Assembly: GCA_021741245.1 (NCBI GenBank)
Contig: JAIOYF010000021.1
Location: 1 to 57,143, forward strand
DNA from: Paracoccaceae bacterium
Lineage (GTDB): Bacteria > Pseudomonadota > Alphaproteobacteria > Rhodobacterales > Rhodobacteraceae
Direction of reading: 5' to 3'
DNA: 57,143 nt
The notes beneath the pieces are model-generated. The model was not told where the DNA came from. It searched no databases and saw only the letters and a list, made by a program, of their open reading frames with translations. Shown piece after piece: positions 18,839-49,658 of this stretch (its first letter is position 1; each line of letters opens with the position of its first letter). A program made the position numbers and the translations under genes.

Positions 18839-19962
18839 TGAAACGGGCGTTCACCGGGGCAAGCGTCTTTGACGGCCATCAACTGCATCCAGATGCGGTG
18901 CTGATTGTCGAGGGCGAAAAGGTCTCTGATATCGCGGAATCGGTGCCAAAAGGGGCCGAAGAGATTCATTTCAACGGCGGTATTGTCGCGCCGGGGCTGA
19001 TCGATTTACAGGTTAATGGCGGCGGTGGATGGATGGTTGACGGCCAGACAGATCGCGCCCGCCTTGCCCGGATTTGCGCGGTTCATGCAGGTCTGGGCGC
19101 GACCGGGATTTTGCCCACGCTGATCACCGACAGCTACGAGTCCACCCAGAGGGTGATTCAGGCTGGCATTGAGGCGATGGGCACACCCGGCTTTTTGGGC
19201 CTGCATCTGGAAGGCCCGCATCTGGACCCAAGGCGCAAGGGCGCGCATGACCCACGGTTGATCCGGCCGATGACGGATCGGGATCTGGACCTTTTGGTAG
19301 CGGCGGCCAGCGCCCTGCCGTGCCTTTTGGTGACCGTCGCCCCCTCTGCCGTCACCAATGCGCAGATCACGGCATTGGCCGATGCCGGAGTAATCGTCAG
19401 CCTTGGCCACAGCGATTGCACCGCCGCCGAGGCCCTCGCGGCCATTGATGCAGGCGCGCGCTGCGTGACGCATCTGTTCAACGCCATGAGCCAGCTTGGC
19501 AATCGTGAGCCGGGCCTTGTTGGTGCAGCCCTTGGCACCGACGTCGCCTTGGGCCTGATCGCGGATGGCATTCATGTGGCACCGACCGTGATCCGCATCG
19601 CCATGGCCGCGCGCCCCGAAGGCGTGTTTCTGGTTTCGGATTGCATGGCGGCGGCGGGCACGGATCAGACTGAGTTCACCTTGAACGGTCGGCGTATCCT
19701 GCGCGGCAATGGCCGTCTGACCTTGGAGGATGGAACCTTGGCCGGGGCAGACCTGACGTTGCCGCGCGCGCTGGAGGTTATGGTGCGGACGGTCGGCCTG
19801 CCCGTTGAACAGGCCCTGCGCATGGCAACAGCCACGCCCGCCGCGCTGATCGGCAATCGGGACATCGGCCATTTACGGCAGGGGGCCGAGGCAAGTCTGG
19901 TGCATCTGGATGGCCAATTGTGCCTGACATCCGTCTGGCAAAAGGGTCAAAAACGGCTCTAA
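18838..19962 (+). CDS. nagA: N-acetylglucosamine-6-phosphate deacetylase
   Basis: A 374-residue amidohydrolase-superfamily enzyme that would turn GlcNAc-6-P into GlcN-6-P and acetate. Family landmarks are in order: GLIDLQVNGGGG, the metal-ligand Glu in LHLEGPHLDPRRKGAHD, GHSDCTAAEA, the His in VTHLFNAMSQLGNREPG, ADGIHVAP, and the catalytic Asp in LVSDCMAAAG. It follows the deaminase gene with a one-base overlap, completing the GlcNAc-6-P to Fru-6-P route. An upstream GTG at 18835 is possible. Its TAA overlaps the convergent HyuB stop on the other strand. Confidence 0.95.
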   Translation: MKRAFTGASVFDGHQLHPDAVLIVEGEKVSDIAESVPKGAEEIHFNGGIVAPGLIDLQVNGGGGWMVDGQTDRARLARICAVHAGLGATGILPTLITDSYESTQRVIQAGIEAMGTPGFLGLHLEGPHLDPRRKGAHDPRLIRPMTDRDLDLLVAAASALPCLLVTVAPSAVTNAQITALADAGVIVSLGHSDCTAAEALAAIDAGARCVTHLFNAMSQLGNREPGLVGAALGTDVALGLIADGIHVAPTVIRIAMAARPEGVFLVSDCMAAAGTDQTEFTLNGRRILRGNGRLTLEDGTLAGADLTLPRALEVMVRTVGLPVEQALRMATATPAALIGNRDIGHLRQGAEASLVHLDGQLCLTSVWQKGQKRL

Positions 19963-21653
19963 CCTTGCCAATTCCACAGTTTTTTCGCCTGTTCGGCGGT
20001 GTATCGGCCAAGGCGGACGTCTTCGGCAATCAAGGCCGGATCACGCCCTGCCGGATCGCCATATCCCCCGCCGCCCGGCGTACGTACGCGCACCCTGTCA
20101 CCCGGCGAAAGGGTAATGTCCTGCGCCTTTGACAGATGCGGCGGCACATAAACGTCGCCGTTTCGCGTGACCTCCACCCGGTTCACCGCACCATCCATGC
20201 CACCTTGCACGCCCTGCGGGCCAACCCGCCCGTGATCCATCACGAAACTTGCCCGCGCATGGCCCCGCAGAAGCTCAATCTCATAATCCAAGCCAAAGCC
20301 ACCCCGATGCGCGCCCGCCCCGCCGGACCCTTCGTGCAGGGCATAGCGGCGGTACAGCACCGGGAAATTCTGCTCCATGATTTCAACTGGCGGGGCCTTG
20401 GAAATGCCGATCGTCGAGCAGCCATTTGACAGCCCATCATGATCGGCATTGCCGCCATAGCCGCCACCCGAAATCTGATACATCACGAAATCACGTCCCT
20501 TTTCGGGATCATGCCCGCCAAGGCCGAAATTCCCGCTTGTGCCCGCAGGGGCCGCCGTCACCCGGTCAGGCAGGGCCTGCACAAGGGCGGCAAAGACCGC
20601 CTCGGCGATGCGCTGGCTGACTTCGGCCGCGCAACCAGATACGGGGCGCGGGTAATGGGCGTCAAGGAAAGTGCCCTCGATCCCGATGACATGCAGCGGC
20701 TCAAACGCGCCAGCACTGATCGGCACATCGGGGAAAATGTGGCGCATGGCCAGATAGACCGAAGACAGGGTCGTCGCCCGTACCGAATTCATCGGCCCCA
20801 TGCACGGCAGCGAAGATCCGGCAAAGTCAAAGGTCAGCCCCTGTTGCGTTGTGGTGACCGATAGCGCAATGGTCAGCGGTTCATTCACCACCCCATCGGA
20901 ATCCACGATGGCCGTGGCCCGATAAGTCCCCGGCGGGATGAGGTCGATCATTGCCCGCATCTGCCGGGCAGCAAGGCCGCGCATCTCGGCAATGGCGGCT
21001 GTGACCGTGTCATCGCCATAGCGGTCCATAAGGCCCGCCAACCGCTCTGCCCCTACCAAAAGCGCCGAGGCTTGCGCCTTTACATCGCCGATCCGCTGTT
21101 CACTGACCCGGATGTTGGAGCAGATGATCTGGTAAATTTCAGTGTCCAACACGCCCTTTTTGAACAATTTCACCGGAGGCAGGCGCAAACCTTCTTGTTC
21201 CGCGCTGATGGCACTTGCGGAAAAGCCGCCGGGAACGGCGCCGCCGGTATCGGGCCAATGCCCAGTGTTGGACAGCCAGCAAAAGATGCGCCCCTCCCAC
21301 CAAACGGGCATGGCAAAGCGCACATCCATCAGATGGGTGCCGCCAAGATAGGGGTCGTTGACGATATAGATATCACCCGGTTCGGGTGCCGCGGTTTCGC
21401 CCGAACGGATGCGTTCGATGATGGTGCGGGTGGAAAACTGCATCACACCGACAAAGACCGGAAGGCCCTTTGACCCTTGGGCAATCAAGCTGCCATCCTC
21501 GGCGCTATAGATCCCGTCGGATCGGTCATCCGCCTCGGCAATCACCGGCGAAAAGGCGGCGCGGCTAAAGGTCAGGTCCATCTCATCACAGACCTGCTGC
21601 AATCCCGCTTGCAGCACGGCAAGGGTGACGGGGTCTAGGCCGGGTTTGGTCAT
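19959..21653 (-). CDS. Hydantoinase B/oxoprolinase family subunit, first copy
   Basis: A 564-residue HyuB-type protein (DPVTLAVLQAGLQQVCDEMD at the start). It keeps the family blocks VNDPYLGGTHLMDV and GGYGGNADHDGL and the C-terminal LSPGDRVRVRTPGGGGYGDP. HyuB pairs with HyuA to form ATP-dependent enzymes that open cyclic amides (N-methylhydantoinase, 5-oxoprolinase) or carboxylate acetone-like substrates. The ATG at 21653 overlaps the HyuA stop (ATGA). It is the last gene of the Liv-transporter operon, and its stop overlaps that of nagA on the opposite strand. Substrate unknown. Confidence 0.92.
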   Translation of the reverse strand: MTKPGLDPVTLAVLQAGLQQVCDEMDLTFSRAAFSPVIAEADDRSDGIYSAEDGSLIAQGSKGLPVFVGVMQFSTRTIIERIRSGETAAPEPGDIYIVNDPYLGGTHLMDVRFAMPVWWEGRIFCWLSNTGHWPDTGGAVPGGFSASAISAEQEGLRLPPVKLFKKGVLDTEIYQIICSNIRVSEQRIGDVKAQASALLVGAERLAGLMDRYGDDTVTAAIAEMRGLAARQMRAMIDLIPPGTYRATAIVDSDGVVNEPLTIALSVTTTQQGLTFDFAGSSLPCMGPMNSVRATTLSSVYLAMRHIFPDVPISAGAFEPLHVIGIEGTFLDAHYPRPVSGCAAEVSQRIAEAVFAALVQALPDRVTAAPAGTSGNFGLGGHDPEKGRDFVMYQISGGGYGGNADHDGLSNGCSTIGISKAPPVEIMEQNFPVLYRRYALHEGSGGAGAHRGGFGLDYEIELLRGHARASFVMDHGRVGPQGVQGGMDGAVNRVEVTRNGDVYVPPHLSKAQDITLSPGDRVRVRTPGGGGYGDPAGRDPALIAEDVRLGRYTAEQAKKLWNWQG

Positions 21654-23671
21654 TGGGGCACCGTCACGATCAGGTTTCCGTCTGTATCCGAGGTTACCAC
21701 ACAGCCGGGTTCCACGATTGTTGTCGTATCCATCTGCTCGATGATCGCGGGGCCCGTCAAATACAGGGCCAGCGGCAGATGATCTCGCCAATAGACCGGC
21801 GTTTCAACCCAGCCCCCGAACCAAACGGGGCGCGAGGCCATGGGTTCGGCCCGGTCTTTACGCAAAATAGGGTCTATCAATGCGGAAAGGTCGAATTCCG
21901 GGCGCATCCCGTTGACCGATACATTCAGGTTCACCAGATTGGCCTTGATGCTGGGCAGGTCCACCCGGAACCTTGCGTGATAGGCGGCCTCAAACAGGCG
22001 CTGCATTTCTTCACGGCCCGGAGTGGCCGATGGCAGGGGCACGCGCAGCAGGTGGGTTTGGCCGACAAATTGCATATCCGCGGAATATTCGGCACGCGTT
22101 CCGGTCAGGGTGATCTTTTCTTGCGCAATCAGACGCCGCCCTTCGGCCTCTTGTTCGGCCAGAACCGCATGCACAGTCTCGATATCCACACTATCAAGCG
22201 GGCGGTTCAGCGTGCGCACAAAATCGTGCCGCAGGTCGGCCACGACGCAGCCAAGCGCATTTGTGATGCCTGGACGGGCGGGGATCAGCACGCGTGGCAC
22301 CGCAAGTTCCCGCGCGAGTGCCACCGCATGCAATGGCCCGGCCCCGCCAAAGGCGAATAGCGCGAAATCGCGCGGATCGGCCCCAAGCGAAATGCTGACC
22401 ATACGGATTGCCCCCGCCATATGGGTATTGGCGATGCGCACCACCGCCTCGGCCGCCTGTTCGACCGACAAGCCAAGGGGGCGGGCGATCTGGTCGTGCA
22501 TCGCGGCGCGCGCGGCTTCGGCCGCCTGACCAAAGCGTTCGGCAGGCAGACGACCAAGGATCAGGTTGGCGTCCGAGATCGTGACGCGCGTGCCGCCCCG
22601 CCCATAGCAGATCGGTCCGGGGGTAGACCCCGCACTTTCCGGCCCCACGCGCAGCAAACCACCCGCATCAATCCGCGCAATCGATCCTCCACCTGCCCCC
22701 ACAGTGCGCACATCGACCATGGGCACATGGATCGGCATGGCATATTCCACTTCGATCTCATTCGAGACGGGAGCCTTTCCCGCGCGGATCATCGCCACAT
22801 CGGTGGAGGTGCCGCCCATGTCATAGGTCAAAAGGTCCGGCATCCCCGCACGCCGCCCCGTCGCCACCGCCGCCATCACGCCCGAGGCCGGGCCGGACAT
22901 CACCGTTTTCACCGCCTCTTTCGACACCAACCTTGCGGAAACCATTCCCCCATTGCCATTCATCACCAACAGGTCATGGGCATAGCCACGATCCGCCAAT
23001 TGATCGGCAAGGCGGCTGACATAACGCTCCAGCAAGGGCTGCACGCTGGCATTCACGGCAGCAGTCACGCCCCGCTCATACTCGCGGCTTTCCGACAGCA
23101 AGGCATGCCCCATGGTGATATAGTCATTGTGCCAGACGCGGGCCGCCACTTCAGCCGCGCGCTTTTCGTGTTCAGGGTTGGCATAGGCATGCAAGAAGTG
23201 GATCACAAGGCTTTCACAGCCCATTTCCAGTAATGCCAGAGCCGCTTTTTCAACGGCAACCTCATCAAGCGGCGTAAGCACACGCCCACGTGCATCCAGC
23301 CGTTCCGGCACTTCCAGCCGCAGGTCGCGGGGAATGATGGGAACAAAGCGGCCGTGCATGCCATAGGCCTGCGGGCGGGTGCGGCGGCCCAGTTCCAGCA
23401 CATCGCGAAAGCCTTCGGTGGTGATCAGGCCGGTTTTGCACAAAGCGCGTTCCAGCACCGCATTGGTGGTGGTCGTGGTGCCATGCACGATCAGGTCGAT
23501 TGCAGACAAATCCGCGCCCGCGGCGTCGAACGCTGCCAGAACCCCCGGCGCCTGATTGGGCAGGCTGGTCGGCACCTTGGCCAGACGCACCGTGCCGTGG
23601 TCGGGATCAAAGATCACCAGATCGGTAAAGGTGCCGCCAACATCCACACCTGCGACAAGGCCTGCCATCAT
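21650..23671 (-). CDS. Hydantoinase A/oxoprolinase family subunit, first copy
   Basis: A 673-residue HyuA-type ATPase subunit. The N-terminal phosphate-binding motif is VAGVDVGGTFTDLVIFD and the signature VHGTTTTTNAVLER follows; the central actin-like ATP fold carries TYDMGGTSTDVAMI and TVGAGGGSIARID. It would activate the amide carbonyl for the partner HyuB. It is coupled to the LivF stop (ATGATG; ATG at 23671 or 23668) and to HyuB (ATGA), placing the pair directly under the transporter genes. This suggests the imported compound is the enzyme's substrate. Confidence 0.93.
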   Translation of the reverse strand: MMAGLVAGVDVGGTFTDLVIFDPDHGTVRLAKVPTSLPNQAPGVLAAFDAAGADLSAIDLIVHGTTTTTNAVLERALCKTGLITTEGFRDVLELGRRTRPQAYGMHGRFVPIIPRDLRLEVPERLDARGRVLTPLDEVAVEKAALALLEMGCESLVIHFLHAYANPEHEKRAAEVAARVWHNDYITMGHALLSESREYERGVTAAVNASVQPLLERYVSRLADQLADRGYAHDLLVMNGNGGMVSARLVSKEAVKTVMSGPASGVMAAVATGRRAGMPDLLTYDMGGTSTDVAMIRAGKAPVSNEIEVEYAMPIHVPMVDVRTVGAGGGSIARIDAGGLLRVGPESAGSTPGPICYGRGGTRVTISDANLILGRLPAERFGQAAEAARAAMHDQIARPLGLSVEQAAEAVVRIANTHMAGAIRMVSISLGADPRDFALFAFGGAGPLHAVALARELAVPRVLIPARPGITNALGCVVADLRHDFVRTLNRPLDSVDIETVHAVLAEQEAEGRRLIAQEKITLTGTRAEYSADMQFVGQTHLLRVPLPSATPGREEMQRLFEAAYHARFRVDLPSIKANLVNLNVSVNGMRPEFDLSALIDPILRKDRAEPMASRPVWFGGWVETPVYWRDHLPLALYLTGPAIIEQMDTTTIVEPGCVVTSDTDGNLIVTVPQ

Positions 23672-24366
23672 ACACCCACAAACTGGCGAAACAGGCTCGA
23701 TTGCGGCCCAAGGTCGCCGGTTGCCACCTCGGCCTCAACCCGGCCATGCGCCATGAAGCAAACCCGATCCGACATCTTCAAAACGGCATCCACCCTTTGT
23801 TCGACCAACACCGTCGCCATGCCCGTTTTGCGCAGGCTGAGAACTGTGTCGCGGATCAGTTGAATCATGGAGGGTTGCAACCCCTCGGTCGGTTCATCCA
23901 GCAAAAGCACCTGCGGCTCAAGGCACAGGGCGCGCGCAATCGCCAGCATCTGCTGTTCGCCCCCCGACAGGGTTGATGACACCTGATCCAGACGCTCACG
24001 CAGCCGCGGAAACAGGTCCAATACAAAGTCCCGCGTTTTCGCGCCCTTTTTCCGTGCGAGAAGGCCTACCTCGATATTCTCAGCCACTGTCAGCGGACCA
24101 AAGAGACGCCGCCCCTGCGGCACATAGGCGATGCCCTCCATCGGCACCTTATGCGCGGGCAGGCTTTGCACCGCCTTGCCATTGAGGGTGATCGTGCCGG
24201 CACTGGCCGGAACAAGACCCATGATCGCCTTCATCAGCGTCGATTTTCCGGCACCGTTGCGCCCCATGATGCAAGTCACCTCGCCCGCCTGCGCCTGAAA
24301 CGACAGGTCGCGCAAAATGGTGATATTGCCGTATCCGGCGGACAGCCCCTCAACCTTCAGCATCAT
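23668..24366 (-). CDS. Liv-type ABC transporter ATP-binding protein (LivF-like)
   Basis: A 232-residue ATPase of the branched-chain-amino-acid/urea transporter class. Walker A is GRNGAGKST, the signature LSGGEQQMLAIARAL, Walker B VLLLDEPTEGLQP. Short length without a long C-terminal extension and the SMIQLI segment identify the LivF rather than the LivG member. The start is placed at tandem ATGs (24366/24363) where similarity to the family begins; the gene overlaps livG by 17 bp. It belongs to a complete SBP-H-M-G-F set. Confidence 0.94.
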   Translation of the reverse strand: MMLKVEGLSAGYGNITILRDLSFQAQAGEVTCIMGRNGAGKSTLMKAIMGLVPASAGTITLNGKAVQSLPAHKVPMEGIAYVPQGRRLFGPLTVAENIEVGLLARKKGAKTRDFVLDLFPRLRERLDQVSSTLSGGEQQMLAIARALCLEPQVLLLDEPTEGLQPSMIQLIRDTVLSLRKTGMATVLVEQRVDAVLKMSDRVCFMAHGRVEAEVATGDLGPQSSLFRQFVGV

Positions 24367-25072
24367 CGCCCCCACCCAGATAGGCGTTCTGAACCTCGGG
24401 ATTGGACCTGATCGCATCGGGGGCGCCCGTCGCCAGCACCTTGCCAAAGTTCAGCACGGTGATCTGCGTGGCAAGATCCATCACCACATCCATGTTATGC
24501 TCGATAAGCAAAACCGTCGTTGCAGGAACAAGGCTGCGCACCAGCGTCTTGAACCCCTCGATCTCACCCGCCGCAAGGCCCTGGGTCGGCTCATCCAGAA
24601 TGAGGATACGGGGTTTCAGCGCAAGGCCCATGGCCACCTCCAGCAGGCGTTGATGCCCGTAAGACAGGTTTCCAGCCAGTTCTCCGCCAAATCCCGCCAG
24701 ATTGACCTGCGCCAGCGCCGCCGCGACCTGGGCCTCCAGGCCCAAGGCGCCCGCGCTTTGGGCGGCCAGTGCGACATTGTCAAACACCGTCAGCCGTGGG
24801 TAAACCGAGGTGATCTGAAACGTATAGGCGATGCCTTTTTTCACTCGCGCATGGGCGGGCAGGCGGGTGATATCCTCGTCCGCCAAGGTGATGGTCCCGG
24901 ATTGCACGGGAATGCGGCCGGACAGCAGGCTGACAAAGGTTGTCTTGCCCGCGCCATTGGGGCCAATCAGGGCGTGAATTTCGCCCTGTTGCAGCCGGAA
25001 ATCCACCCCATCAACCGCGCGCAAGCCGCCAAAGTGGCGCGTCAGACCCTTTGCCTCCATCAAGGCAGCCAT
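24350..25072 (-). CDS. Liv-type ABC transporter ATP-binding protein (LivG-like)
   Basis: A 240-residue ATPase. Walker A is GPNGAGKTT, the signature LSYGHQRLLEVAMGLA, Walker B ILILDEPTQGLAAGE, and the H-loop sits in VLLIEHNMDVVMDLA. The C-terminal extension expected of LivG-type subunits is present (LATGAPDAIRSNPEVQNAYLG). It overlaps livM by 13 bp and livF by 17 bp, so the ATPases are translated from a compact polycistronic message. Confidence 0.94.
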   Translation of the reverse strand: MAALMEAKGLTRHFGGLRAVDGVDFRLQQGEIHALIGPNGAGKTTFVSLLSGRIPVQSGTITLADEDITRLPAHARVKKGIAYTFQITSVYPRLTVFDNVALAAQSAGALGLEAQVAAALAQVNLAGFGGELAGNLSYGHQRLLEVAMGLALKPRILILDEPTQGLAAGEIEGFKTLVRSLVPATTVLLIEHNMDVVMDLATQITVLNFGKVLATGAPDAIRSNPEVQNAYLGGGDDAEG

Positions 25073-26004
25073 TTCAGCCCCCTTTCGCGGATGGTGCCCA
25101 AAATGCCCTTGGGCGCAAACAGCACCAGCACCACCAAGGCCGCGCCCACAACAAACAGATAGGCCGTGGTATAACCTGACGCGATGTCGATCAGATAGAA
25201 CATCAACAGCGCGCCCAGAAACGGCCCGATCACCGTGCCTGCCCCCCCCAAGAGCACATAAAGCATCGGCAGGATCGAATATTGGATGGTGGCAAATGTG
25301 GCCCCAACATAGCCAAACAGCATCCCATAAGCTGCCCCGGCCATCCCGGCATAAAGGCCCGAGATTACCAGCGCCGTCAGCTTTACACGAAACGGGTTAT
25401 AGCCCAGCATCCGGCTGCGCTCTTCATTCTCGCGCATCGCGACCATGACGCGGCCAAAGGGGGACCGGACAAGCCACAGGCAGATCAGCATGGCAATGGC
25501 AAACAGGATCAACGCCGCCATATAGCGCGGGGTGTCCGTCGACAGATCAAAGCCCGCGATCATTCGCGCCGCACTATCGACGACAAAGCCCTCGTCCCCG
25601 CCGGTATGGGTGTTGAGATAAAGCAACGTGAGATAGCCCGCCTGCGCAAACATCAGCGTCACGATCATGAAACTGACCCCCGCCGTGCGCAGCGCCAAAA
25701 GCCCGACCAGTCCCGCAAGCGCCCCCCCGGCAACCAGCCCCGCGATCAGGGCTGGAACAGGGGCCCAGCCAAGGGTCCAGATCGGCAGGCCCATGCCATA
25801 CATTCCGGCGGCAAAGAACAGCGCATGGCCCAGCGACAAAAGCCCCGTATAGCCAAAGGCGATGTTATAGCCCATGGCAAACACCGACAGCACCATGATC
25901 CGCGAGACATTGGTCGCGTGATAGGACGGCAGCATGAATTGCGCCGCAAACAGCACCGCGATCAGGCCCAGATGCAACGCCAGAGGTTTTGCGGAAAGGC
26001 TCAT
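25060..26004 (-). CDS. Liv-type ABC transporter permease (LivM-like)
   Basis: A 314-residue inner-membrane permease with about eight to ten hydrophobic segments. The LivM core is visible as GYNIAFGYTGLLSLGHALFF and the ATPase-contacting loop as SPFGRVMVAMRENEERSRMLGYN. It pairs with LivH to form the channel. The ATG at 26004 overlaps the livH stop (ATGA). Normal length and architecture. Confidence 0.94.
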   Translation of the reverse strand: MSLSAKPLALHLGLIAVLFAAQFMLPSYHATNVSRIMVLSVFAMGYNIAFGYTGLLSLGHALFFAAGMYGMGLPIWTLGWAPVPALIAGLVAGGALAGLVGLLALRTAGVSFMIVTLMFAQAGYLTLLYLNTHTGGDEGFVVDSAARMIAGFDLSTDTPRYMAALILFAIAMLICLWLVRSPFGRVMVAMRENEERSRMLGYNPFRVKLTALVISGLYAGMAGAAYGMLFGYVGATFATIQYSILPMLYVLLGGAGTVIGPFLGALLMFYLIDIASGYTTAYLFVVGAALVVLVLFAPKGILGTIRERGLKWLP

Positions 26005-26879
26005 GTCTTTGCCCCGAACAGGCCCTGTGGGCGAAAGACAAGGACAAGCGCCACCAGAAGCGTCGCAATGATCTTGGCCAGCGTTGGCGAAAAGAACATC
26101 GAGATCACGCCATCCGATAGGCCGATGATCAGGGCTGCCACCAAAGTGCCGCGCAGGGATCCAAGGCCACCGATGATCACCACGATAAACGACAGCAGCA
26201 GCGGGTCATGGCCCATCAGGTAATGTGCCTGCTGGATCGGCACGATCAATACCGCCGCCGCCGCCGCAAGCGCCGCACCAAGGGCAAATGTGCCTGCATA
26301 GACCCTGTCGACATTGATGCCAAAGGCCCGCGCAGTCTCCATATCCACCTGAGTGGCCCGCATGACCAACCCGGCCTTTGTGCGGGTCATAAAGGCCCAG
26401 ACGCCAAGCAAGATCAGACCTGCCGCCAGCACTACGAACAGCTTGTAGCCGGAATAGCCGAACCACGGAAATTGAAGGCGCAGATTGAAGGGCGGCTCTA
26501 CCGGGCGCGCATCGGGGCCATAAAAGGTCAGTGCCGTCTGCTGCAAGATGTAAAGAAGCCCGATCGTGGCCACGATTGTCGCCTCGGGATCATATTTCAA
26601 CCGCTTGAGCACAAACACATCTGCAAGCCATGCTATCGCCCCGACGACCAAGGGCGCAATCAGCAGGGCCGCCAACCAGCCTATCGCAGGGGGAAACGGC
26701 AGATAGTGGGTGACAAACCATGCGGTGACGGCACCCAGCATGAAAAACTCGCCATGTGCCACGTTGACGACCCGCATCACGCCAAACACGAGGCTGAGGC
26801 CGATGGCCGTCAGCGCCAGCACAGCCGCCATGACGGTGCCTTCCAGCAGGGCAAGAAAAAGAAATGGTCCGAAGGCCAC
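26001..26879 (-). CDS. Liv-type ABC transporter permease (LivH-like)
   Basis: A 292-residue inner-membrane permease. The LivH signature GLSLVFGVMRVVNVAHGEFFML is present, interrupted by nothing unusual, and the cytoplasmic EAA-like loop reads KAGLVMRATQVDMETARAFG. It lies 70 bp after the binding-protein gene, across a hairpin. With LivM it forms the pore for the substrate captured by the Tat-like-exported binding protein. Confidence 0.94.
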   Translation of the reverse strand: MAFGPFLFLALLEGTVMAAVLALTAIGLSLVFGVMRVVNVAHGEFFMLGAVTAWFVTHYLPFPPAIGWLAALLIAPLVVGAIAWLADVFVLKRLKYDPEATIVATIGLLYILQQTALTFYGPDARPVEPPFNLRLQFPWFGYSGYKLFVVLAAGLILLGVWAFMTRTKAGLVMRATQVDMETARAFGINVDRVYAGTFALGAALAAAAAVLIVPIQQAHYLMGHDPLLLSFIVVIIGGLGSLRGTLVAALIIGLSDGVISMFFSPTLAKIIATLLVALVLVFRPQGLFGAKT

Positions 26880-26913
26880 GTGGCAATCCCGCGTGTTTGA
26901 GGAAAATGGTGGC

Positions 26914-26935: not shown

Positions 26936-26949
26936 GAAGTCAGAAAGGA

Positions 26950-28230
26950 TCAGAACGACTGCGTGGTATAGTCGACGGCATCCGGATACATGCCATCTTC
27001 AAGGCTGGTGGTATGGGCGCGGATAAGCTTCCCGCCTTCGACCTTTGAGATGAACTGATGGCCAAAGACCTGATGGGTCTTGCCGTTGAACCGCTTGTCG
27101 CCCTGCACATGGGCAAGGCTTGCGGGCATATCGGTCATCGCCTCGACGGCTTCGACAAACTTCTGTCGATCCGCTGTGGATTGATAGCCCGATGCCTCCA
27201 TCCCGGCCTTGATCACATGCAAGGTTTCCCAGACGCTGAACATATGCGCATAGGTTGACACGTCCTTGGCATCCGAAATGCTGGCCCCATTGTCATCCAC
27301 CCCAACGGCGGCGCGATAGGCGGTTTCATGGTCGGAAGCATCTGCCTGCTTTACGCGGTTGTGCCCCTCCCAGAAATGGGTGCCCTCAAGGAATTCCAGC
27401 CCCGGCGAGGCGGTGTCGACCGCCTCAAGCGAGTCGATAAAGCCAAAGATTTCCGGGCGCGCGCCCGATCCATAGAACTCCCCCAGTTCTTTGACAAAAG
27501 TCAGAACGGCAGGGCCAACCATGACGTGATACAGCACCTCGGTATCCGCCGGGATCTGCGGCATATAACGGGTAAAGCTGGTCTCGGTCGGCGGAATTGC
27601 GACTTGGGCGATGACTTGGCCACCGCCTGCCTCCACCGCCGCGGTAAAGAAATCGCGGTGATCATGGCCAAAGGCATAGTCGGGGAACACCATGGTGACC
27701 TTCTTGCCAAGATTGGCCAGAACCCATGGCGCCATGGAAGAAACCTGTGCGCGCACATCGGTGATGCCGGGCTGCATGGTCCACCGGTTCAGCATGCCGC
27801 TGGCCACGTGATAGCCTTCGGAACAGACCAGATAGGGCACTTTCAACTCTGCCGCACGCGGGGCGGTGCCGATGACCACATGGCTGAAAAGCGGCCCGAA
27901 CACGAGGTCGCATCCCGCCTGACTGACCAGCTTTTCAACAACCTCTGCGCCGCGCTTTGGATCGGTGCCGTCGTCTTCAAAAAGGATTTCAACCGGGCGA
28001 CCATTGATGCCACCGCCATCGTTGATCACCTTTAGCGCAGCCTGCGCTGTGCGTTCATACCAGCGGCCATAGGCGGCACCAATCCCCGTGCGGTGCAACT
28101 GAAAGCCCAGCTTGATGGGTGCCGATTGGGCCCAGACCGGGGCGACAAAGCCCGCAGCCAAAAGCCCCGCGCCAGCGCCCTTGAGAACCGCGCGCCGAGA
28201 TGGTGATAATCCAAACACTTCCTTGGTCAT
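26950..28230 (-). CDS. Liv-type ABC transporter substrate-binding protein
   Basis: A 426-residue periplasmic binding protein of the Leu/Ile/Val-urea-amide class (type 1 periplasmic fold). The N-terminus carries SRRAVLKGAGAGLLAAGF ending in VWAQ, a twin-arginine-like signal. The mature part starts IKLGFQLHRTGIGAAYGRW and keeps the family VINDGGGINGRPVEI. Related proteins bind amides, urea or aromatic acids as well as amino acids. The ATG at 28230 was chosen with GGAG 9 nt upstream; an ATG 15 bp earlier overlaps that site. A 21-bp dyad upstream (28294-28314) may be its operator. Confidence 0.9.
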   Translation of the reverse strand: MTKEVFGLSPSRRAVLKGAGAGLLAAGFVAPVWAQSAPIKLGFQLHRTGIGAAYGRWYERTAQAALKVINDGGGINGRPVEILFEDDGTDPKRGAEVVEKLVSQAGCDLVFGPLFSHVVIGTAPRAAELKVPYLVCSEGYHVASGMLNRWTMQPGITDVRAQVSSMAPWVLANLGKKVTMVFPDYAFGHDHRDFFTAAVEAGGGQVIAQVAIPPTETSFTRYMPQIPADTEVLYHVMVGPAVLTFVKELGEFYGSGARPEIFGFIDSLEAVDTASPGLEFLEGTHFWEGHNRVKQADASDHETAYRAAVGVDDNGASISDAKDVSTYAHMFSVWETLHVIKAGMEASGYQSTADRQKFVEAVEAMTDMPASLAHVQGDKRFNGKTHQVFGHQFISKVEGGKLIRAHTTSLEDGMYPDAVDYTTQSF

Positions 28231-28293
28231 TTCTCGTTTCTCCACTGTTGCAGGGCGCTTCTTGGATCGAACGCCTCTGGGTTAAGGTTGTGC

Positions 28294-28314: not shown

Positions 28315-28320
28315 ATTTAT

Positions 28321-29670
28321 TTACCCTGATCTGGCCGTCGACAGGAGCCAAAGACCCAAGACGGTATAGCCGACCATAAGCGCCGTCATCGGAAGATGCG
28401 CTGCCGCCCTTGTGTCGGTTCCCACCAGTCGCAAGGCCAGCAAAACCGCCAGAATATGGGCCCCCAGAATTGCAGCGAACTGAACGCCATAGATCAGCGG
28501 CATGATCCGGGAATCGGTCAGGAACCCGAAGGACACATAGAACGGCGGCAGGCCCAACACCTCATCCCCGCGAAACAGCGGGTCATTCAGCGCGGCCAGC
28601 GTGTATTGCCCGACCGTCAGCAGCGTCACAAAGTAATGGGCGGCGTGATAGCCTGCGGCGATGGCCAGAAACGACAGCATCACCGGGCCGGGGGCAAACC
28701 GCTTGCCGCTGATGATCTGCCCGGCCCGGACCACAGCCCATATGGTCGAGATGGTCATGGCCCAGACGCCGATCAGGCCAAAGGTGTTCACCAACATCAC
28801 AGCCGAGCGCCCCGTCGGCTCCAGCGGGTTTTCCCCGATCAGGCCCTGCCACCAGAATGTCTCGGCCAGCCCGTCAAAGGTCAGCGCGGCAAGGGCAAGG
28901 GTGATAAAGGCCATGGCAGAGACGGAAAGTGGCGGCATAGCCAGAATTTGCGTGCCGGGCCAACCCCGCATCAATCGGGCCCGATTGCCGCTAAGCTCCA
29001 GCCAAAAGGGCGCGACCTTGGCCAGATAGCCCATGAAAACTGTCAGAAACTCGCCTTGCCCCAACCACTCTTCCCCTTCGGCCACGGCCAGCACAAAGAT
29101 CACTAGCCAATAGGCCATGGCCAGAACCGCAAGCTCATAGGGATCATCGGGGGATAATGACACGATCTGGAACCAAGCAAACCCCGCGTAAAGCGCCACC
29201 GCTGGCCAATGGCCGAACCGCGACAGGCCAGCCGTGCCTGTTCGCCCCAAAAGCGTGCGCATGATCCGCACCGGGGCTGTCCACGGGTTGATGGACCGCC
29301 ACAGGTTGCCAAAGAGAACCGAGCCGATAGGCACTACTATCCAGACACCTGTCCAGAACACCAGAGTCATAAGATTGTGCATCGGATCACGCGCGCCAAA
29401 GACGCCGATCAAAACCAGCCCGCAAAAGCACAGGAACGACAGATAAGAGGATACCGAGACGGGCAGCAAAATCCGCCGCTCCATCACCTCTACCGCGTTC
29501 ATCCGGGGCAAACGGTCAGCAACCGCCCCCATGACAGCCGTGATGGCAACCGTGATCGCGGCCCCGGTGATATAGTGCCCCGTTGGCAGGGTCAGGATCA
29601 CCGAGGGAGGCAGGGCGCAGGCAAAGGCTGCGCCGGGCAGAAGCATGAATGCCCCTGCTAGCCGTTTCAT
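28321..29670 (-). CDS. Polytopic membrane protein of unknown function
   Basis: I do not recognise a characterised family for this 449-residue protein. It has roughly ten to twelve hydrophobic segments. Distinct conserved-looking pieces are SYLSFLCFCGLVLIGVFGAR, a Trp-rich NLWRSINPWTAPVR and a His pair in AAGYHAAHYFVTLL that could bind a cofactor or metal. Similar proteins are, from memory, sometimes labelled fenitrothion hydrolase on weak grounds. The ATG at 29670 overlaps the AA_synth stop (ATGA), so it is translated with the catabolic genes. An N-terminal signal-like segment ends in AFACAL. It may be a secondary transporter or a membrane redox component. Confidence 0.8.
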   Translation of the reverse strand: MKRLAGAFMLLPGAAFACALPPSVILTLPTGHYITGAAITVAITAVMGAVADRLPRMNAVEVMERRILLPVSVSSYLSFLCFCGLVLIGVFGARDPMHNLMTLVFWTGVWIVVPIGSVLFGNLWRSINPWTAPVRIMRTLLGRTGTAGLSRFGHWPAVALYAGFAWFQIVSLSPDDPYELAVLAMAYWLVIFVLAVAEGEEWLGQGEFLTVFMGYLAKVAPFWLELSGNRARLMRGWPGTQILAMPPLSVSAMAFITLALAALTFDGLAETFWWQGLIGENPLEPTGRSAVMLVNTFGLIGVWAMTISTIWAVVRAGQIISGKRFAPGPVMLSFLAIAAGYHAAHYFVTLLTVGQYTLAALNDPLFRGDEVLGLPPFYVSFGFLTDSRIMPLIYGVQFAAILGAHILAVLLALRLVGTDTRAAAHLPMTALMVGYTVLGLWLLSTARSG

Positions 29671-30248
29671 CGCAGGCCATCCTCGCCCTTGACCTGCCAA
29701 ACCTCCAGCCCGCCCATGCGTGAATTCACACGCGGCCCCTTGGCCATGGCAAGAACGAACATGATTTCATCAGCGCGCGGCCCGTCCGGGCAAGCAATGG
29801 TAAAGGCATCAAAATGGCTGCGGACATAGGCCGCGTTGATATGGCCAAGCGGCACGTCCAAGCTGCTGCCCATGCCGCCCACCTTCATCGCCGAAGGCAC
29901 GATGGCGCGGCTTTCGCCCAGCCGTTCGCGCATCGCATAGCCGCCCGGCACATGCCAAAGCGCGCCATGCTCTACCTCGCCATTTTCGCCGACGATGGCC
30001 CCTTTGCCATAGCCGTCGATCCCCTCACGCCCGCCCAAGGCCGCAATCAACTTGTCGGTCAGCATCAGGCCAAGGGGTTTAAGATCCTCCATCGCGGGTT
30101 GCAGATCGGCGTGAAAGCCGCGCGCAAAGGGGTTGGCGCAGATCGCAAGGACCGCCCCACGCAAGCGCGGCGCAGACAGGGCAGTGCCCCCTTCGTGAAA
30201 AATCTGCTCGATCTGCAGGGCGATTTTTCGAACCGGAAAATCAGGCAA
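29667..30248 (-). CDS. Amino acid synthesis (AA_synth, DUF1185) family protein
   Basis: A 193-residue soluble protein of the AA_synth family, whose biochemical function is not established despite the name. Recognisable segments are ANPFARGFHADLQPAMEDL, GYGKGAIVGENGEVEHGALWH and MKVGGMGSSLDVPLGHI. I place the start at the TTG at 30248 because AGGAG lies 7 nt upstream; a TTG at 30263 is less well placed. It sits between the UPF0280 gene and the membrane-protein gene and overlaps both. Such proteins recur beside Mo hydroxylases and HNR-like genes, suggesting a role in ring catabolism. Confidence 0.85.
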   Translation of the reverse strand: MPDFPVRKIALQIEQIFHEGGTALSAPRLRGAVLAICANPFARGFHADLQPAMEDLKPLGLMLTDKLIAALGGREGIDGYGKGAIVGENGEVEHGALWHVPGGYAMRERLGESRAIVPSAMKVGGMGSSLDVPLGHINAAYVRSHFDAFTIACPDGPRADEIMFVLAMAKGPRVNSRMGGLEVWQVKGEDGLR

Positions 30249-31077
30249 GGGGCATCTCCTCAAGGGCTAGGGACCCGACGGTCCTGTGTTCAGGGTGCAG
30301 GAAAAGGGCTGCAGCTTCAATAAGGCCAGCGTTCTTGTACTGTTGCGCAACAGCCTGACCTGCCAAAAGGGCTGTGGCAACCTCGGATCGGGTCAAAGGG
30401 CCGACCTGAACCGTAACGGGCCGATCCCCCAGATCACTGTCGGCCTGCAGATCACACGCGGGGCGGCGTTGAATGGCCGGATGATCCCCAAGCGTGACTG
30501 CATTGGCAATCATTGTGGCCGCTGCATCGGCCATGGCGGCTGTTCGGGCCAGAACAGTCACTGAATCCGCGATGCCAAAAGACCAGCTGCGCCCTCGCCA
30601 GCCCGAGGTTGCGATACCACGCGCCGCATCTTGGGACTGCACCTTGACCCGTGCCAAGACATCACCCTGACCAGCAACGGCACAGGTCAGGCTTTCGCCT
30701 TGGGTCAGGTAAAGGGCGATATCCCCGCCGTTATTGGCATAGGCGCGCTGAATGCCGGGCGCGGCAAGGCAAGCCAGAATTTCTTCGGCCACCGATCCTG
30801 CGACCGCCGCCATCGGGGTGATGAAATCCGGGTGAAACGCCGCTGTGGCCCGCGCCATGCGTTGCCCGATCATCGATTTGGGTTGGCCTGCCGCGCGGCG
30901 CAATTCTGGCAATTCGCTGGCGAGTTCCGCCAGAACAGTGTCGAATCTTGCAATGGCGCTCTGCTCCGCCATGCTGATGGCCCCGGCATCTCCCCAGCAT
31001 TGGGCAATAATGTCGATGGGGCCATGGTGCATGTGCAACCGCCCATCGGGAAGGCGTTGAACCTCCGCCCCGGTCAT
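30241..31077 (-). CDS. UPF0280 family protein (ApbE-like fold)
   Basis: A 278-residue UPF0280 protein, a family distantly related to the flavin transferase ApbE. Landmarks are FHPDFITPMAAVAGSVAEEI, YANNGGDIALYL and ATSGWRGRSWSFGIADSVTV. The ATG at 31077 overlaps the HNR-like stop (ATGA). ApbE-type proteins attach FMN covalently to partners, so a maturation role for a flavoprotein of this pathway is conceivable; this is inference, since no UPF0280 activity is known to me. Confidence 0.88.
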   Translation of the reverse strand: MTGAEVQRLPDGRLHMHHGPIDIIAQCWGDAGAISMAEQSAIARFDTVLAELASELPELRRAAGQPKSMIGQRMARATAAFHPDFITPMAAVAGSVAEEILACLAAPGIQRAYANNGGDIALYLTQGESLTCAVAGQGDVLARVKVQSQDAARGIATSGWRGRSWSFGIADSVTVLARTAAMADAAATMIANAVTLGDHPAIQRRPACDLQADSDLGDRPVTVQVGPLTRSEVATALLAGQAVAQQYKNAGLIEAAALFLHPEHRTVGSLALEEMPLA

Positions 31078-36142: not shown

Positions 36143-36562
36143 ATGACAGACAGACCAAATTATGTGCTGGACGATCAGATCGGCTATCTGCTGCGGCGCG
36201 TGACCCAGCGGCATCTGGCCATTTTCAACGACGCGATCCCTTTGGTCACAACCACCCAATTTGCGGTCATCGCGCGTTTGGTTCAGCTTGGCCCGATGTC
36301 GCAAAACCTTTTGGGGCGTGAGACTGCGATGGATGCCGCGACGATCAAGGGCGTAGTTGACCGTCTGTCACGTGAGGGCTTTGTCAGCACCACCCCCGAT
36401 CCAGATGACAAACGCAGGTTGACCGTGACGCTGACTCCAGCCGGGGCTGCCTTGTTTGACGCGCAAGTGGCAATCGCCCTGAACATTTCCGACAAGACCC
36501 TCGCGCCCTTGAACGCAGATGAACGGGCACAGCTGATTGGCCTGATGTCAAAACTGACCTGA
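36143..36562 (+). CDS. MarR-family transcriptional regulator
   Basis: A 139-residue winged-helix regulator with the MarR pattern: a dimerisation helix at each end, a helix-turn-helix around MSQNLLGRETAMDAATIKGV and a wing containing DPDDKRRLTVTLT. It is divergent from the Mo hydroxylase/HNR operon, as NicR (MarR type, nicotinate catabolism in Pseudomonas) is near nic genes. A repressor relieved by a pathway intermediate is the likely mode. The effector cannot be deduced. Confidence 0.92.
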   Translation: MTDRPNYVLDDQIGYLLRRVTQRHLAIFNDAIPLVTTTQFAVIARLVQLGPMSQNLLGRETAMDAATIKGVVDRLSREGFVSTTPDPDDKRRLTVTLTPAGAALFDAQVAIALNISDKTLAPLNADERAQLIGLMSKLT

Positions 36563-36651
36563 GGCCGAAGCAGACATTCAACTGTCGCTTTTCTCCGGTG
36601 ACTCGCCTGATTGTGCCGTTAGCCTTTGCTTGACCCATGCAGGAGGCAAGA

Positions 36652-38685
36652 ATGTCAAACGATCCGCTATTGCAGCCCTATCAGCTGAAACATCTGACGC
36701 TGCGCAACCGGATCATGACCACGAGCCATGAACCTGCCTATCCCGAGGATGGGATGCCAAAGGATCGCTATCGGCTTTACCACCTTGAGCGGGCCAAGGC
36801 AGGCGTTGCCCTGACGATGACGGCAGGCTCCGCCGCTGTGTCGCGCGACAGCCCCCCGGTGTTCAACAACATCCTTGCCTATAAGGACGAGGTTGTGGGC
36901 TGGATGAAGCGCCTGACCGATGATTGCCACGAGGCGGGGGCGGCGGTGATGATCCAACTGACCCACCTTGGCCGCCGCACGCGCTGGGACAAGGGCGATT
37001 GGCTGCCCGTTGTGGGTGCGGGATCATCGCGCGAACCGGCACATCGCGCCTTTCCCAAGGTGATCGAGGATTGGGACATTGCCCGCATCATCGAAGACTA
37101 CGCCGATGCCGCCGAACGCATGAAGGCGGCGGGTCTGGATGGGGTGGAGTTCGAATGCTACGGCCACCTGATGGATCAGTTCATGTCGCCCCTGACCAAC
37201 AGTCTGGACGGGCCCTATGGTGGTAGCCTTGAGAACCGCGCGCGGTTTTCGATGGACGTGCTGGCCGCCTGCCGCAAGCGGGTAGGGGCCGATTTTCTGC
37301 TGGGCGTGCGGTTTACGGCGGATGAGGATGCCGCCGGTGGGATCACCGCCGATGAAGGCGTGGCCATCGGCAAGATGTTCCGCGACTCTGGCCTTGTTGA
37401 TTTCCTCAATATCATCAAGGGGCGGATTCATACCGACCCCGCGATGACGGATGTGATCCCGATTCAGGGCATGCGCGCCGCGCCGCATCTGGATTTCGCA
37501 GGCCGGGTGCGGGCCGAGGTGGGCCTGCCCACCTTTCACGCCGCCCGGATTCCCGATGTGGCAACGGCACGCTATGCCATCCAGTCGGGACAGTTGGATA
37601 TGGTGGGCATGACCCGCGCCCATATGGCCGACCCGCATATCGTGCGTAAGATCATGGAAGGGCGCGAACAAGATATCCGCCCCTGCGTCGGGGCCACCTA
37701 TTGCCTTGATCGTATCTATCAAGGCGGCATGGCGCTGTGCATTCACAACCCCGCCACCGGGCGCGAAGAAGAGATGCCGCATGTGATCGCGCCAGCGGCG
37801 CAGGCAAAGCATGTCGTGATCGTGGGCGCAGGCCCGGCCGGGCTTGAAGCCGCGCGTGTTGCGGCAGAGCGCGGGCACCGTGTCACCGTTTTTGAGGCCG
37901 CAGATCAACCCGGCGGCCAGATCCGCCTGACCGCCAAGACCAAGCGCCGGGCCGAGATGATCGGCATCATCGATTGGCGCATGGCACAATGCGCGGCCCG
38001 TGGTGTGGAGTTTTCCTTTAACACATGGGCAGAGGCATCCGATGTGCTGGCGCTGTCCCCCGATGTTGTGATCATCGCAACGGGCGGCCTGCCCGAAACC
38101 GCGGTTCTGGACGCAGGCAATGATCTGGTTGTCTCGGCTTGGGATATTCTGTCGGGCGATGTGAAACCGGGCAGCAATGTGCTGCTTTATGACGATGCAG
38201 GCGATCACACCGCGTTGCAAGCCGCCCAGCATTTGGCCGAATCCGGGGCCACCGTAGAAGTCATGACACCAGACCGCAGTTTCGCCCCCGAGATCATGGG
38301 GATGAACCTTGTTCCCTATATGCGCGCCCTGCAAGACAAGGCCGTCACCTTTACCGTCACCTATCGCCTTCAGGCGGTGGAGCGGCAGGGCAATCAGCTT
38401 TTGGCGATCATTGGGTCAGACTACGCGACCCTGCGCAAGGAACGCCTGTTTGATCAGATCGTGGTCAACCATGGCACGCAGCCCTTGGCCGGGATCTATT
38501 TCGACCTCAAACCGCTGTCCCAAAATCTGGGTGCCTTGGATCATACGGCCCTCTTGGCAGGTGCGGCGCAGCCCGAGGGAGATGGCCCTCGGGGCTTTCA
38601 GCTCTTTCGGATCGGTGATGCCGTTGCCGCCCGCAATACCCATGCGGCGATCTATGATGCCTTGCGACTGTTGAAGGATATCTGA
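36652..38685 (+). CDS. TMADH/2,4-dienoyl-CoA reductase-type flavoprotein (N-demethylase-like)
   Basis: A 677-residue oxidoreductase. Residues 1-330 are an Old Yellow Enzyme TIM barrel for FMN; a Cys-rich linker and a C-terminal FAD/NAD(P) domain follow, with VVIVGAGPAGLEAARVAAERG. The ATG at 36652 has AGGAGG 6 nt upstream, which overrules the earlier ATG at 36637. Close relatives include N-methylproline and dimethylamine-type demethylases. The iron-sulfur motif is C345, C351, C363 with Ala at 348, where TMADH and dienoyl-CoA reductase have Cys; so three of four ligands are in place. It follows marR by 89 bp on the same strand. Likely action: removing an N-methyl group or reducing a C=C bond. 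Confidence 0.88.
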   Translation: MSNDPLLQPYQLKHLTLRNRIMTTSHEPAYPEDGMPKDRYRLYHLERAKAGVALTMTAGSAAVSRDSPPVFNNILAYKDEVVGWMKRLTDDCHEAGAAVMIQLTHLGRRTRWDKGDWLPVVGAGSSREPAHRAFPKVIEDWDIARIIEDYADAAERMKAAGLDGVEFECYGHLMDQFMSPLTNSLDGPYGGSLENRARFSMDVLAACRKRVGADFLLGVRFTADEDAAGGITADEGVAIGKMFRDSGLVDFLNIIKGRIHTDPAMTDVIPIQGMRAAPHLDFAGRVRAEVGLPTFHAARIPDVATARYAIQSGQLDMVGMTRAHMADPHIVRKIMEGREQDIRPCVGATYCLDRIYQGGMALCIHNPATGREEEMPHVIAPAAQAKHVVIVGAGPAGLEAARVAAERGHRVTVFEAADQPGGQIRLTAKTKRRAEMIGIIDWRMAQCAARGVEFSFNTWAEASDVLALSPDVVIIATGGLPETAVLDAGNDLVVSAWDILSGDVKPGSNVLLYDDAGDHTALQAAQHLAESGATVEVMTPDRSFAPEIMGMNLVPYMRALQDKAVTFTVTYRLQAVERQGNQLLAIIGSDYATLRKERLFDQIVVNHGTQPLAGIYFDLKPLSQNLGALDHTALLAGAAQPEGDGPRGFQLFRIGDAVAARNTHAAIYDALRLLKDI

Positions 38686-45604: not shown

Positions 45605-45861
45605 GGGGCCCCCACCTGCCACTTAAGCTTTGACTATGGCATTGTGCAGTCAGAGTGCAGCAAGTGGCCGCTGTCCAGATCGGCAGCATCCTACGATTCT
45701 TGCCAATTTCGCCTAAAGTTTAGACACTTGACCAATAGGCCATAAGTAGAACGGGCAGTCTGCACAGATTGGTCTGACCCCCATCGCTACGCCATGTCGA
45801 CAGACCCGTTCGATATGGTGGAAATAGAGGCGACTCACCCGATCCTCAAAGGAAACCCGAC

Positions 45862-48380: not shown

Positions 48381-48391
48381 GGGAGGGGCCT

Positions 48392-48688: not shown

Positions 48689-48689
48689 G

Positions 48690-49658
48690 GTGGCCGAACC
48701 CGAAGGACGGATCAGGCTGACGCTTTTGGGTGGCTATCTTGGCTCTGGCAAGACAACATGGCTGAGGCATCAGTTGCATGCCGGAACGTTCGGCCGTGTG
48801 CATGTCGTCGTGAACGAGGCCGCCGAAATCCCGGTTGATGATGCACTTTTGGGTGGGGCTGCGGGCCTGACCGTTCTTGCCGGGGGCTGCGTGTGCTGCA
48901 CTGGCCGCGGCGATCTTGTTGCGGCCCTGCGGGATCTTTGTGATCAGCGCAGCAGTGTCGCAGATTCTGGCGCAAGGATCGAACGGATCGTGCTGGAAAC
49001 CAGCGGTCTTGCCGACCCAGCCCCCATCGTTGCCGCCCTGCGGGCCGATCCCATCCTTGCCCGGCACATCGTGATTGGTGAGATTGTGGTGGCGGTGGAC
49101 GCGGCCCATGGCCTTGCCCAATTGTCCGACGACCCTTTGGGTCGGCGCCAGGTTGAGGCTGCAGACAGGCTGATCCTGACAAAACTTGATGCCGTCGGGG
49201 CAGAGGCGATCGCACGGCTCCAACTGGCTCTGCGCTCGCTCAATCCGGGGGCCACCCTTTCGGCGGCCGTCATGGGATCATGGATGGCGCTGCCCGAGGT
49301 ACCGCCGGGCACGCAGCCCCCGACGCTCCCCCTGCTGCCCGATGGCGACGCAGAGCCGCTTTTGCCCGTCCGTCTGTCGCTTGGGCCAGAGCCGGATTGG
49401 GCCGCACTGGGCGTCTGGCTATCGGCCCTTTTGCACGCGCGGGGCGACCAGATCGTCCGGGTCAAGGGCGTGGTGCAGACCCCTGCGGGGCGGCTTTTGT
49501 TGCAAACCGTGCGGCGGGTCGTGCAACCGCCTGAAATATTGCCAGCGGGTGAGGATAGGGGGGGTCTTGACAACGGGATCGTCGTGATTGGACGTGGCTT
49601 CCAGCCCCAAGCCCTTCACGCCTCCTTCCGCCATTTCCTGAACCCGACGGTGCCTTAG
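48690..49658 (+). CDS. COG0523-family metallochaperone GTPase (CobW/YeiR/ZNG1-like)
   Basis: A 322-residue G3E-family GTPase. Walker A is LLGGYLGSGKTT, the metal-binding CxCC motif sits in AGGCVCCTGRGD, the switch-like LETSGLADPAP follows and the guanine-specificity loop is ILTKLDAV (variant of NKxD). These proteins hand Zn, Co or Fe to a client enzyme. The GTG at 48690 starts 1 bp after the CxxC gene; an overlapping GTG at 48648 is an alternative. The C-terminal CobW_C part is compact. The upstream deacetylase-fold hydrolase is the obvious candidate client; HyuC and the amidohydrolase are others. Confidence 0.9.
   Translation: MAEPEGRIRLTLLGGYLGSGKTTWLRHQLHAGTFGRVHVVVNEAAEIPVDDALLGGAAGLTVLAGGCVCCTGRGDLVAALRDLCDQRSSVADSGARIERIVLETSGLADPAPIVAALRADPILARHIVIGEIVVAVDAAHGLAQLSDDPLGRRQVEAADRLILTKLDAVGAEAIARLQLALRSLNPGATLSAAVMGSWMALPEVPPGTQPPTLPLLPDGDAEPLLPVRLSLGPEPDWAALGVWLSALLHARGDQIVRVKGVVQTPAGRLLLQTVRRVVQPPEILPAGEDRGGLDNGIVVIGRGFQPQALHASFRHFLNPTVP

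Follow-up and report, generated by a model that had tools for sequence, protein, structure and literature searches.

A minus-strand, operon-like run of genes (36021-19959) in the first 57,143 nucleotides of contig JAIOYF010000021.1 from a Paracoccaceae bacterium (assembly GCA_021741245.1, a genome of 4.2 Mb; this whole stretch, contig positions 1-57143, is called the window here) probably serves to take up nicotinate, or a closely similar pyridine carboxylate, and to degrade it reductively. In this reading, which we derive from comparative sequence analysis and to which we assign a probability of about 0.7, the two-subunit protein HyuAB1 would replace the enamidase of the classical cluster, and a UPF0280 protein would mature the 6-hydroxynicotinate reductase (HNR). 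The breakdown of nicotinate via 1,4,5,6-tetrahydro-6-oxonicotinate (THON) is established, and its enamidase is known; new here is a pathway variant without a match to this enzyme, in which the unrelated, presumably ATP-using HyuAB1 appears to take its place. The run comprises genes for a molybdenum (Mo) hydroxylase, an HNR-like protein, UPF0280, AA_synth, a membrane protein, a Liv-type ATP-binding cassette (ABC) transporter and HyuAB1, and ten of its twelve junctions overlap, with an overlap of 4 bases in four cases (open reading frames as listed, with the longest start).

The genes of the nicotinate fermentation cluster of Eubacterium barkeri are named ndhFSLM, hnr and ena. The window resembles this system in the predicted sequence of hydroxylation, reduction by HNR and hydrolytic ring opening, but it derives from an alphaproteobacterium, has a fused two-gene hydroxylase and contains no enamidase match. 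In the proposed pathway, the Liv-type transporter would import nicotinate (or the similar carboxylate), the Mo hydroxylase would convert nicotinate to 6-hydroxynicotinate, and the HNR-like Fe-S protein, with reduced ferredoxin as donor, would reduce the latter to THON. HyuAB1 would then open the ring by ATP-dependent activation of the THON lactim and C-N cleavage to aminomethylene-glutarate. Loss of ammonia from the open enamine, either spontaneous or, as a guess, aided by AA_synth, would yield 2-formylglutarate, which may be degraded further via glutarate as in Azorhizobium. A search for acyl-CoA dehydrogenases in the window genome returned seven members, among which a glutaryl-CoA dehydrogenase is not distinguishable. 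A first-pass annotation of the window had already proposed that a pyridine carboxylate is imported, hydroxylated by a Mo enzyme, reduced by HNR and ring-opened; this outline fits our data, and every gene named by it was found in the window.

The same annotation had considered the pathway possibly undescribed in aerobes. This suggestion fails because publications of 1989 and 1992 report the conversion of 6-hydroxynicotinate to THON, found in E. barkeri, for the aerobic Azorhizobium caulinodans as well, and route and cluster are described for Azorhizobium and Bradyrhizobiaceae (PMC3511419). The HNR homologue of Bradyrhizobiaceae strain SG-6C shares 42% identity with the E. barkeri protein, and a cluster conserved in A. 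caulinodans, B. japonicum, R. palustris and SG-6C encodes the enzymes of the first three steps together with a putative ABC transporter and two conserved proteins of unknown function (PMC3511419); we infer that these two are probably UPF0280 and AA_synth. The cluster (AZC_2804-2790 in A. caulinodans) has the Mo hydroxylase, HNR and the ABC transporter in common with the window. Since it reportedly covers the first three steps, it should include an enamidase, whereas HyuAB1 is found instead in the window genome. In E. barkeri, a bifunctional enamidase opens the THON ring (PMC9304392). No paper joining the terms hydantoinase and hydroxynicotin- was found in the literature searched, which lacks most subscription-journal papers.

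A scan with the HNR protein returned at least 591 encoding stretches, from which 80 loci were kept; adding six named plasmid loci and a further 37 from a class-level sample of genomes brought the set to 123 labelled HNR loci. Genes were labelled by their best tblastn match above 80 bits. Most loci reach about 10 kb from HNR, and 90 of the 123 extend more than 8 kb to either side (well-flanked loci). These 90 loci contain UPF0280 in all cases, the fused Mo subunit in 84 (in loci L149 and L151 at an identity of only 28-29%), the Mo FAD subunit in 83, AA_synth in 76, an ABC ATPase in 70, a permease in 67, a MarR regulator in 66, a substrate-binding protein in 60, HyuAB in 44, a ferredoxin-NADP reductase in 20, an enamidase in 11 and an Old Yellow Enzyme (OYE)-type flavoprotein in nine. 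The ferredoxin-NADP reductase genes speak for the reading proposed here, as do two loci without the fused subunit, L084 and L087, which have a NicAB-type enzyme; the L084 copy bears the annotation nicotinate dehydrogenase. Conservation of the gene set across genomes thus holds for the core. Among the matches listed, the closest named relative of the window HNR belongs to a metagenome-assembled genome titled Sphingomonadales (89%), and the next relatives that bear a family or genus name belong to the Rhodobacteraceae/Paracoccaceae.

The evidence for the replacement of the enamidase comes from the distribution of the two enzymes. In the HNR cluster of Sulfitobacter pontiacus, which has the same hydroxylase/HNR/UPF0280/AA_synth set as the window, an amidohydrolase matches the solved E. 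barkeri enamidase 2VUN with an E-value of 1e-106. The window genome gave no match to this family, while in other genomes this query found matches at up to 75% and 100%. We scored two samples at an identity of at least 60%: a class-level sample of 240 alphaproteobacterial genomes (38 with and 202 without HNR) and an order-level sample of 196 genomes (59 with HNR, i.e. 58 new ones and the window genome, and 137 without). In the class sample, 13 HNR-positive genomes carry an enamidase (64-75%) and the other 25 a HyuB (64-79%), with none having both or neither (Fisher 1.8e-10, kinship ignored). The prediction of exactly one of the two enzymes per HNR-positive genome, fixed beforehand, held in 56 of 59 genomes of the order sample, with 31 enamidases, 25 HyuB, no genome with both and three with neither. 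Taken together, 93 of the 96 distinct HNR-positive genomes have exactly one of the two enzymes and none has both; the remaining three have an enamidase at 49-52%. Among genomes without HNR, 3/202 in the class and 0/137 in the order sample carry either enzyme.

The two types are also exchanged on the HNR phylogeny, for which we used a quick maximum-likelihood tree of 58 of the 121 HNR sequences (50 labelled, genome-wide for class-sample loci and locally for the others, and eight unlabelled; two class-sample loci, L152 with HNR cut at a contig end and L153 with HNR matched in two pieces, are outside the sequence set). The best tree requires eight changes of the enamidase/HyuAB state, four of which are forced by well-supported branches. 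The sister sequences of genomes G210 and G104 (support 100) differ in state, and genera g226 and g209 each include both types. That the state switches repeatedly on a single reductase tree is best accounted for by two enzymes that perform the same step on the same intermediate, and HyuAB1 thus appears to replace the enamidase in the window genome. If HyuAB substitutes as widely as it was sampled (25/38 class, 25/59 order genomes), HNR clusters without an enamidase would be explained and a sizeable HyuAB subfamily would gain a substrate.

An ATP-dependent lactamase activity of HyuAB1 would be in line with its relatives. Both of its subunits can be aligned to caprolactamase (6YRA) and N-methylhydantoinase (7HK5). 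The ATP motifs DVGGTFTD, DMGGT and GSTPGP are visible in the alignment of HyuA1 to CapA, and Asp/His/Asp/His metal residues, read by eye, are aligned between HyuB1 and CapB; ATP motifs and such a metal site are described for caprolactamase in PMC8453981. While HyuAB1 shares the two-subunit architecture and these motifs with CapAB, it lacks the two adjacent cysteines at the position aligned to the vicinal disulfide Cys410-Cys411 of CapB and stays below the NCBIfam caprolactamase cut-offs (476 and 300 versus 1000 bits). HyuB1 and HyuA1 are 79% and 71% identical to an HNR-linked copy of Neorhizobium and only 30% and 38% identical to the second pair of the window, HyuAB2.

Several observations weigh against the proposed pathway. 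The substrate is taken from relatives, and the activities, the HyuAB chemistry and the role of UPF0280 are predicted from comparative genomics; the name HNR itself follows the annotation of relatives as 6-hydroxynicotinate reductase rather than an alignment with E. barkeri Hnr. HyuAB homologues act on many substrates, and an enamidase hydrolyses and deaminates, whereas HyuAB would only hydrolyse. The exclusion has its exceptions: G358, G366 and G413 fall below the 60% line, yet have their enamidase on the HNR contig; G082 has an enamidase and G114 and G217 have a HyuB without HNR; and additional enamidase-like matches, at 41% and 37%, turn up in the HyuB-type genomes G104 and G064. HyuB-like matches at 45% and 44% occur in G065 and G231, again in the wrong class. 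Neither enzyme is seen in the local neighbourhood of 35 of the 90 well-flanked loci. Because the best candidates alone were scored per genome (5-7 for HyuB, 7-9 for the enamidase), the enzyme absences are not absolute. The states are moreover clustered on the HNR tree (eight changes versus a shuffled mean of 12.4), and the test on independent pairs comprises only four supported pairs (p 0.125), all of them in the expected direction.

The HNR-like protein represents a conserved family without a Pfam or NCBIfam model or a PDB relative in the libraries searched. Seven cysteines (C10, C13, C17, C27, C115, C218 and C354) are present in 121/121 aligned rows, C174 in 119 and C181 in 116, and the Fe-S pattern includes Cx2Cx3Cx9C. 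Its AlphaFold2 model gave no PDB match at E<=0.001, the best listed matches being unrelated; this is weak evidence for a new fold because the model is of moderate quality, with a predicted local distance difference test (pLDDT) of 82 and a predicted template modelling score of 0.72. A Pfam scan of 44 members yielded GCV_T_C in 39 at E<=1 (best 4e-05), and the match on the window protein (P0001) scored 15.7 bits, below the cut-off of 25.9. The genes of the Mo hydroxylase adjoin HNR. The best solved relatives of the fused subunit are the aldehyde oxidoreductases 1dgj/1sij, with E. barkeri nicotinate dehydrogenase (3hrd) among the matches.

UPF0280 is probably a maturation factor of HNR. It was detected in 38/38 HNR-positive and 0/202 HNR-negative genomes of the class sample, leaving uncounted a marginal partial match in G143 (6.9e-4), and the two genes are co-oriented in all 118 loci that show both and lie at most 400 bases apart in 116. 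The AlphaFold2 model (pLDDT 94) matches DVU1097 (2o34, COG2122/DUF375; 1.5e-10) and the flavin transferase ApbE (5mgy, 4e-5) in Foldseek; the PDB matches at E<=0.001 number 15, of which 13 are ApbE/FmnB/Ftp entries and two are 2o34. The model thus suggests a common fold with both proteins, with modest TM-scores of about 0.3-0.5 against ApbE entries. As candidates for a catalytic histidine like that of ApbE, two histidines, at positions 21 and 24 of the window protein, occur in 109 and 105 of 116 rows. In work of 2006 by Alhapel, the HNR of E. barkeri is reported to contain a covalently bound flavin; if this is so, UPF0280 may attach the flavin of HNR.

An alternative for this one part, which is independent of the others discussed here and to which we give a slightly less than even chance, is that UPF0280 delivers sulfur, persulfide or an Fe-S cluster to HNR instead of attaching flavin. 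COG2122 is needed together with DUF39 for homocysteine synthesis, with a persulfide role proposed, and its homology to ApbE seems not to extend into the flavin-binding region (PMC5764234). The ApbE target motif Dxx[ST]GA[ST] (PMC12052999) is furthermore found in 0/121 HNR sequences. We also considered QSGATRLT of HNR as an NqrC-type flavinylation site and rejected it on this ground and for the variability of three of its four columns. The ApbE-like fold suggested by the model and the covalent flavin reported for E. barkeri HNR argue for flavin. Known COG2122 and ApbE systems have DUF39 or NqrC as partners, whereas the partner of the window UPF0280 is HNR, without the target motif. A further-reaching reading, less likely than not, combines both proposals: UPF0280 could be a cytosolic ApbE-fold enzyme with HNR as its one client, attaching flavin or another cofactor at a site other than the ApbE motif, and HyuAB1 could be a new ATP-dependent opener of 6-oxo-tetrahydronicotinate, repeatedly exchanged with the enamidase. 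If both are true, UPF0280/COG2122 would gain a role and HyuAB a new activity around an Fe-S reductase whose predicted fold has no match in the PDB copy searched. The strict pairing with HNR makes the role of the COG2122 family directly testable. The name UPF0280 is absent from the literature searched, in which most subscription-journal papers are missing.

It is unlikely that the HyuAB-type clusters degrade another pyridine or pyridone, such as another carboxylate or a substituted or N-methylated nicotinate, with a reduced lactam that an enamidase could not open. The transporters do differ between the types (two Liv types with substrate-binding proteins 29% identical), and accessory genes vary between loci (OYE in 11/123, a Rieske oxygenase in 8/123). 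However, the HNR of both types are intermixed on one tree, with different states in the sister pair and within the two genera mentioned above, and the fused hydroxylase subunit of the window is 58% identical to that of the enamidase-bearing S. pontiacus locus. Still less probable is a function of HyuAB1 elsewhere, on a later lactam or in a carboxylation, with another amidohydrolase opening THON. The HyuAB family does include carboxylases, acetophenone carboxylase being among the HyuAB1 matches, but the distribution of HyuAB is complementary to that of the enamidase in two samples, and we know of no later lactam in the THON route.

The first-pass annotation had described a single 30-kb island (19959-49658), whose right half includes an ATZ/TRZ amidohydrolase. 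The core genes co-occur widely, as shown above, but the quinone reductase, ATZ and HyuAB2 do not travel with them: the quinone reductase, ATZ and HyuB2 were labelled in 0/123 HNR loci and HyuA2 in 2/123 (41-44% identity), so that membership of HyuAB2 in the pathway is unsupported. The PuuE-like gene was found in 1/123 loci (28%) and HyuC and CobW in none, but these three are not properly judged by the loci because their distance from HNR in the window exceeds 13 kb and the loci mostly span about 10 kb per side. The ATZ protein has deaminases and chlorohydrolases as its nearest solved relatives and was found at E<=1e-60 in five of the 196 order-sample genomes, the window genome included; with this rarity and relationship it was rejected as an enamidase analogue, and it is HyuAB1 that tracks the missing step. 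Although the genes adjoin in the window and G429 has an ATZ homologue (46%) about 28 kb from HNR, it is very improbable that ATZ, HyuAB2, HyuC and the deacetylase-fold hydrolase belong with the operon to a single 30-kb island acting on an imported heterocycle, given these locus counts, the single HNR-positive genome among the four others with ATZ, and strands and gaps that mark the operon and the right-half genes as separate units.

The coordinates are given in Table 1. The probable start of UPF0280 is at about 31077, and the homology of HyuB1 begins near 21638.

Table 1. Coordinates of the predicted nicotinate operon, its divergent neighbours and genes of the right half of the 30-kb island.
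Feature	Coordinates	Strand	Family matches and remarks
MoFAD, FAD subunit of Mo hydroxylase	35194..36021	-	PF00941 3.3e-37, PF03450
MoFused, [2Fe-2S] and molybdopterin subunit fused, predicted nicotinate 6-hydroxylase	32513..35197	-	PF20256, PF02738, PF01799, PF00111
HNR-like, predicted 6-hydroxynicotinate reductase	31074..32516	-	annotation of relatives
UPF0280 (COG2122-like), predicted HNR maturation factor, ApbE-like fold	30241..31095	-	NF003322, 338 bits (cut-off 290)
AA_synth (DUF1185), first-paralogue type	29667..30263	-	PF06684 1.4e-63; 3byq, 2qtp
Membrane protein, 9 hydrophobic segments (hydropathy)	28321..29700	-	without family
Substrate-binding protein of Liv-type ABC transporter	26950..28245	-	PF13458 1.4e-50
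LivH, LivM, LivG, LivF (permeases and ATPases)	23668..26879	-	PF02653, PF00005
HyuA1, ATP-binding subunit, predicted THON-opening ATP-dependent lactamase	21650..23671	-	PF01968, PF05378; CapA 6yra_A 6.5e-110
HyuB1, metal-binding subunit	19959..21791	-	PF02538 2.1e-156; CapB 6yra_B 4.6e-75
MarR regulator	36143..36562	+	PF01047; divergent from operon
OYE-type flavoprotein, lineage-specific neighbour, not core	36637..38685	+	PF00724 9.9e-49; divergent from operon
ATZ amidohydrolase	40038-41582		right half of island
HyuB2/A2	41745-45622		right half of island
HyuC	45862-47106		right half of island
PuuE/deacetylase-fold protein	47478-48380		right half of island

AA_synth (PF06684) scored above the cut-off in 34 of 38 HNR-positive genomes of the class sample (not in G066, G184, G196 and G233) and in 15 of 202 HNR-negative ones, a match of G056 below the cut-off being left uncounted. 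The window protein is 54% identical to AAs1 and 44% to AAs2 of S. pontiacus. A second paralogue with AAs2 as best match is present in 11/11 enamidase loci (L120, L121, L127, L129, L140, L141, L144, L148, L149, L086 and L087) and in 3/44 HyuAB loci of the well-flanked set. Matches to AA_synth also end about 70-120 bases from enamidase-like matches (41-44%) in G060 (L157) and G202 (G202:C292:15581-17333), both without an HNR match, and at a second place in G210 (G210:C1:100028-101824), in each case away from HNR. This arrangement hints that AA_synth works together with the ring-opening step, and the pairs perhaps belong to a related ring-opening route. The membrane protein had no Pfam, NCBIfam or PDB match; homologues occur in 32/90 well-flanked loci, one of which (L084, 5737-7200) is 37% identical, and it may be accessory to the transporter.

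Candidates for ring opening were also seen in genomes without HNR. In G082, the enamidase match (74%) lies at G082:C8:32009-33178, and in G114 (contig C26) and G217 (contig C30) HyuAB at 59-63% stands beside a distant Mo hydroxylase homologue (27-29%). The Rieske oxygenase of the HNR loci is of the VanA type and occurs in seven of the 90 well-flanked loci (e.g. L086, 17058-18125, on which the Pfam assignment was made, and L083, 16541-17611); it is possibly a demethylase feeding substituted nicotinates into the pathway. Ten of the OYE genes in HNR loci are close relatives of the window copy (at least 77%) and one is at 35%.

In the remainder of the window, the genes at 39058-49658 (quinone reductase, ATZ, HyuAB2, HyuC, PuuE-like, CobW) form a separate set that resembles a second heterocycle or hydantoin route. 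At 2614-9798, a large protein with bacterial Ig-like repeats and a BapA-like N-terminus is encoded beside ABC exporter-type and outer-membrane efflux proteins, a locus that is a probable secreted adhesin system. A HWE/HisKA_2 histidine kinase and a PhyR-type regulator at 50326-53716 constitute a general stress response locus.

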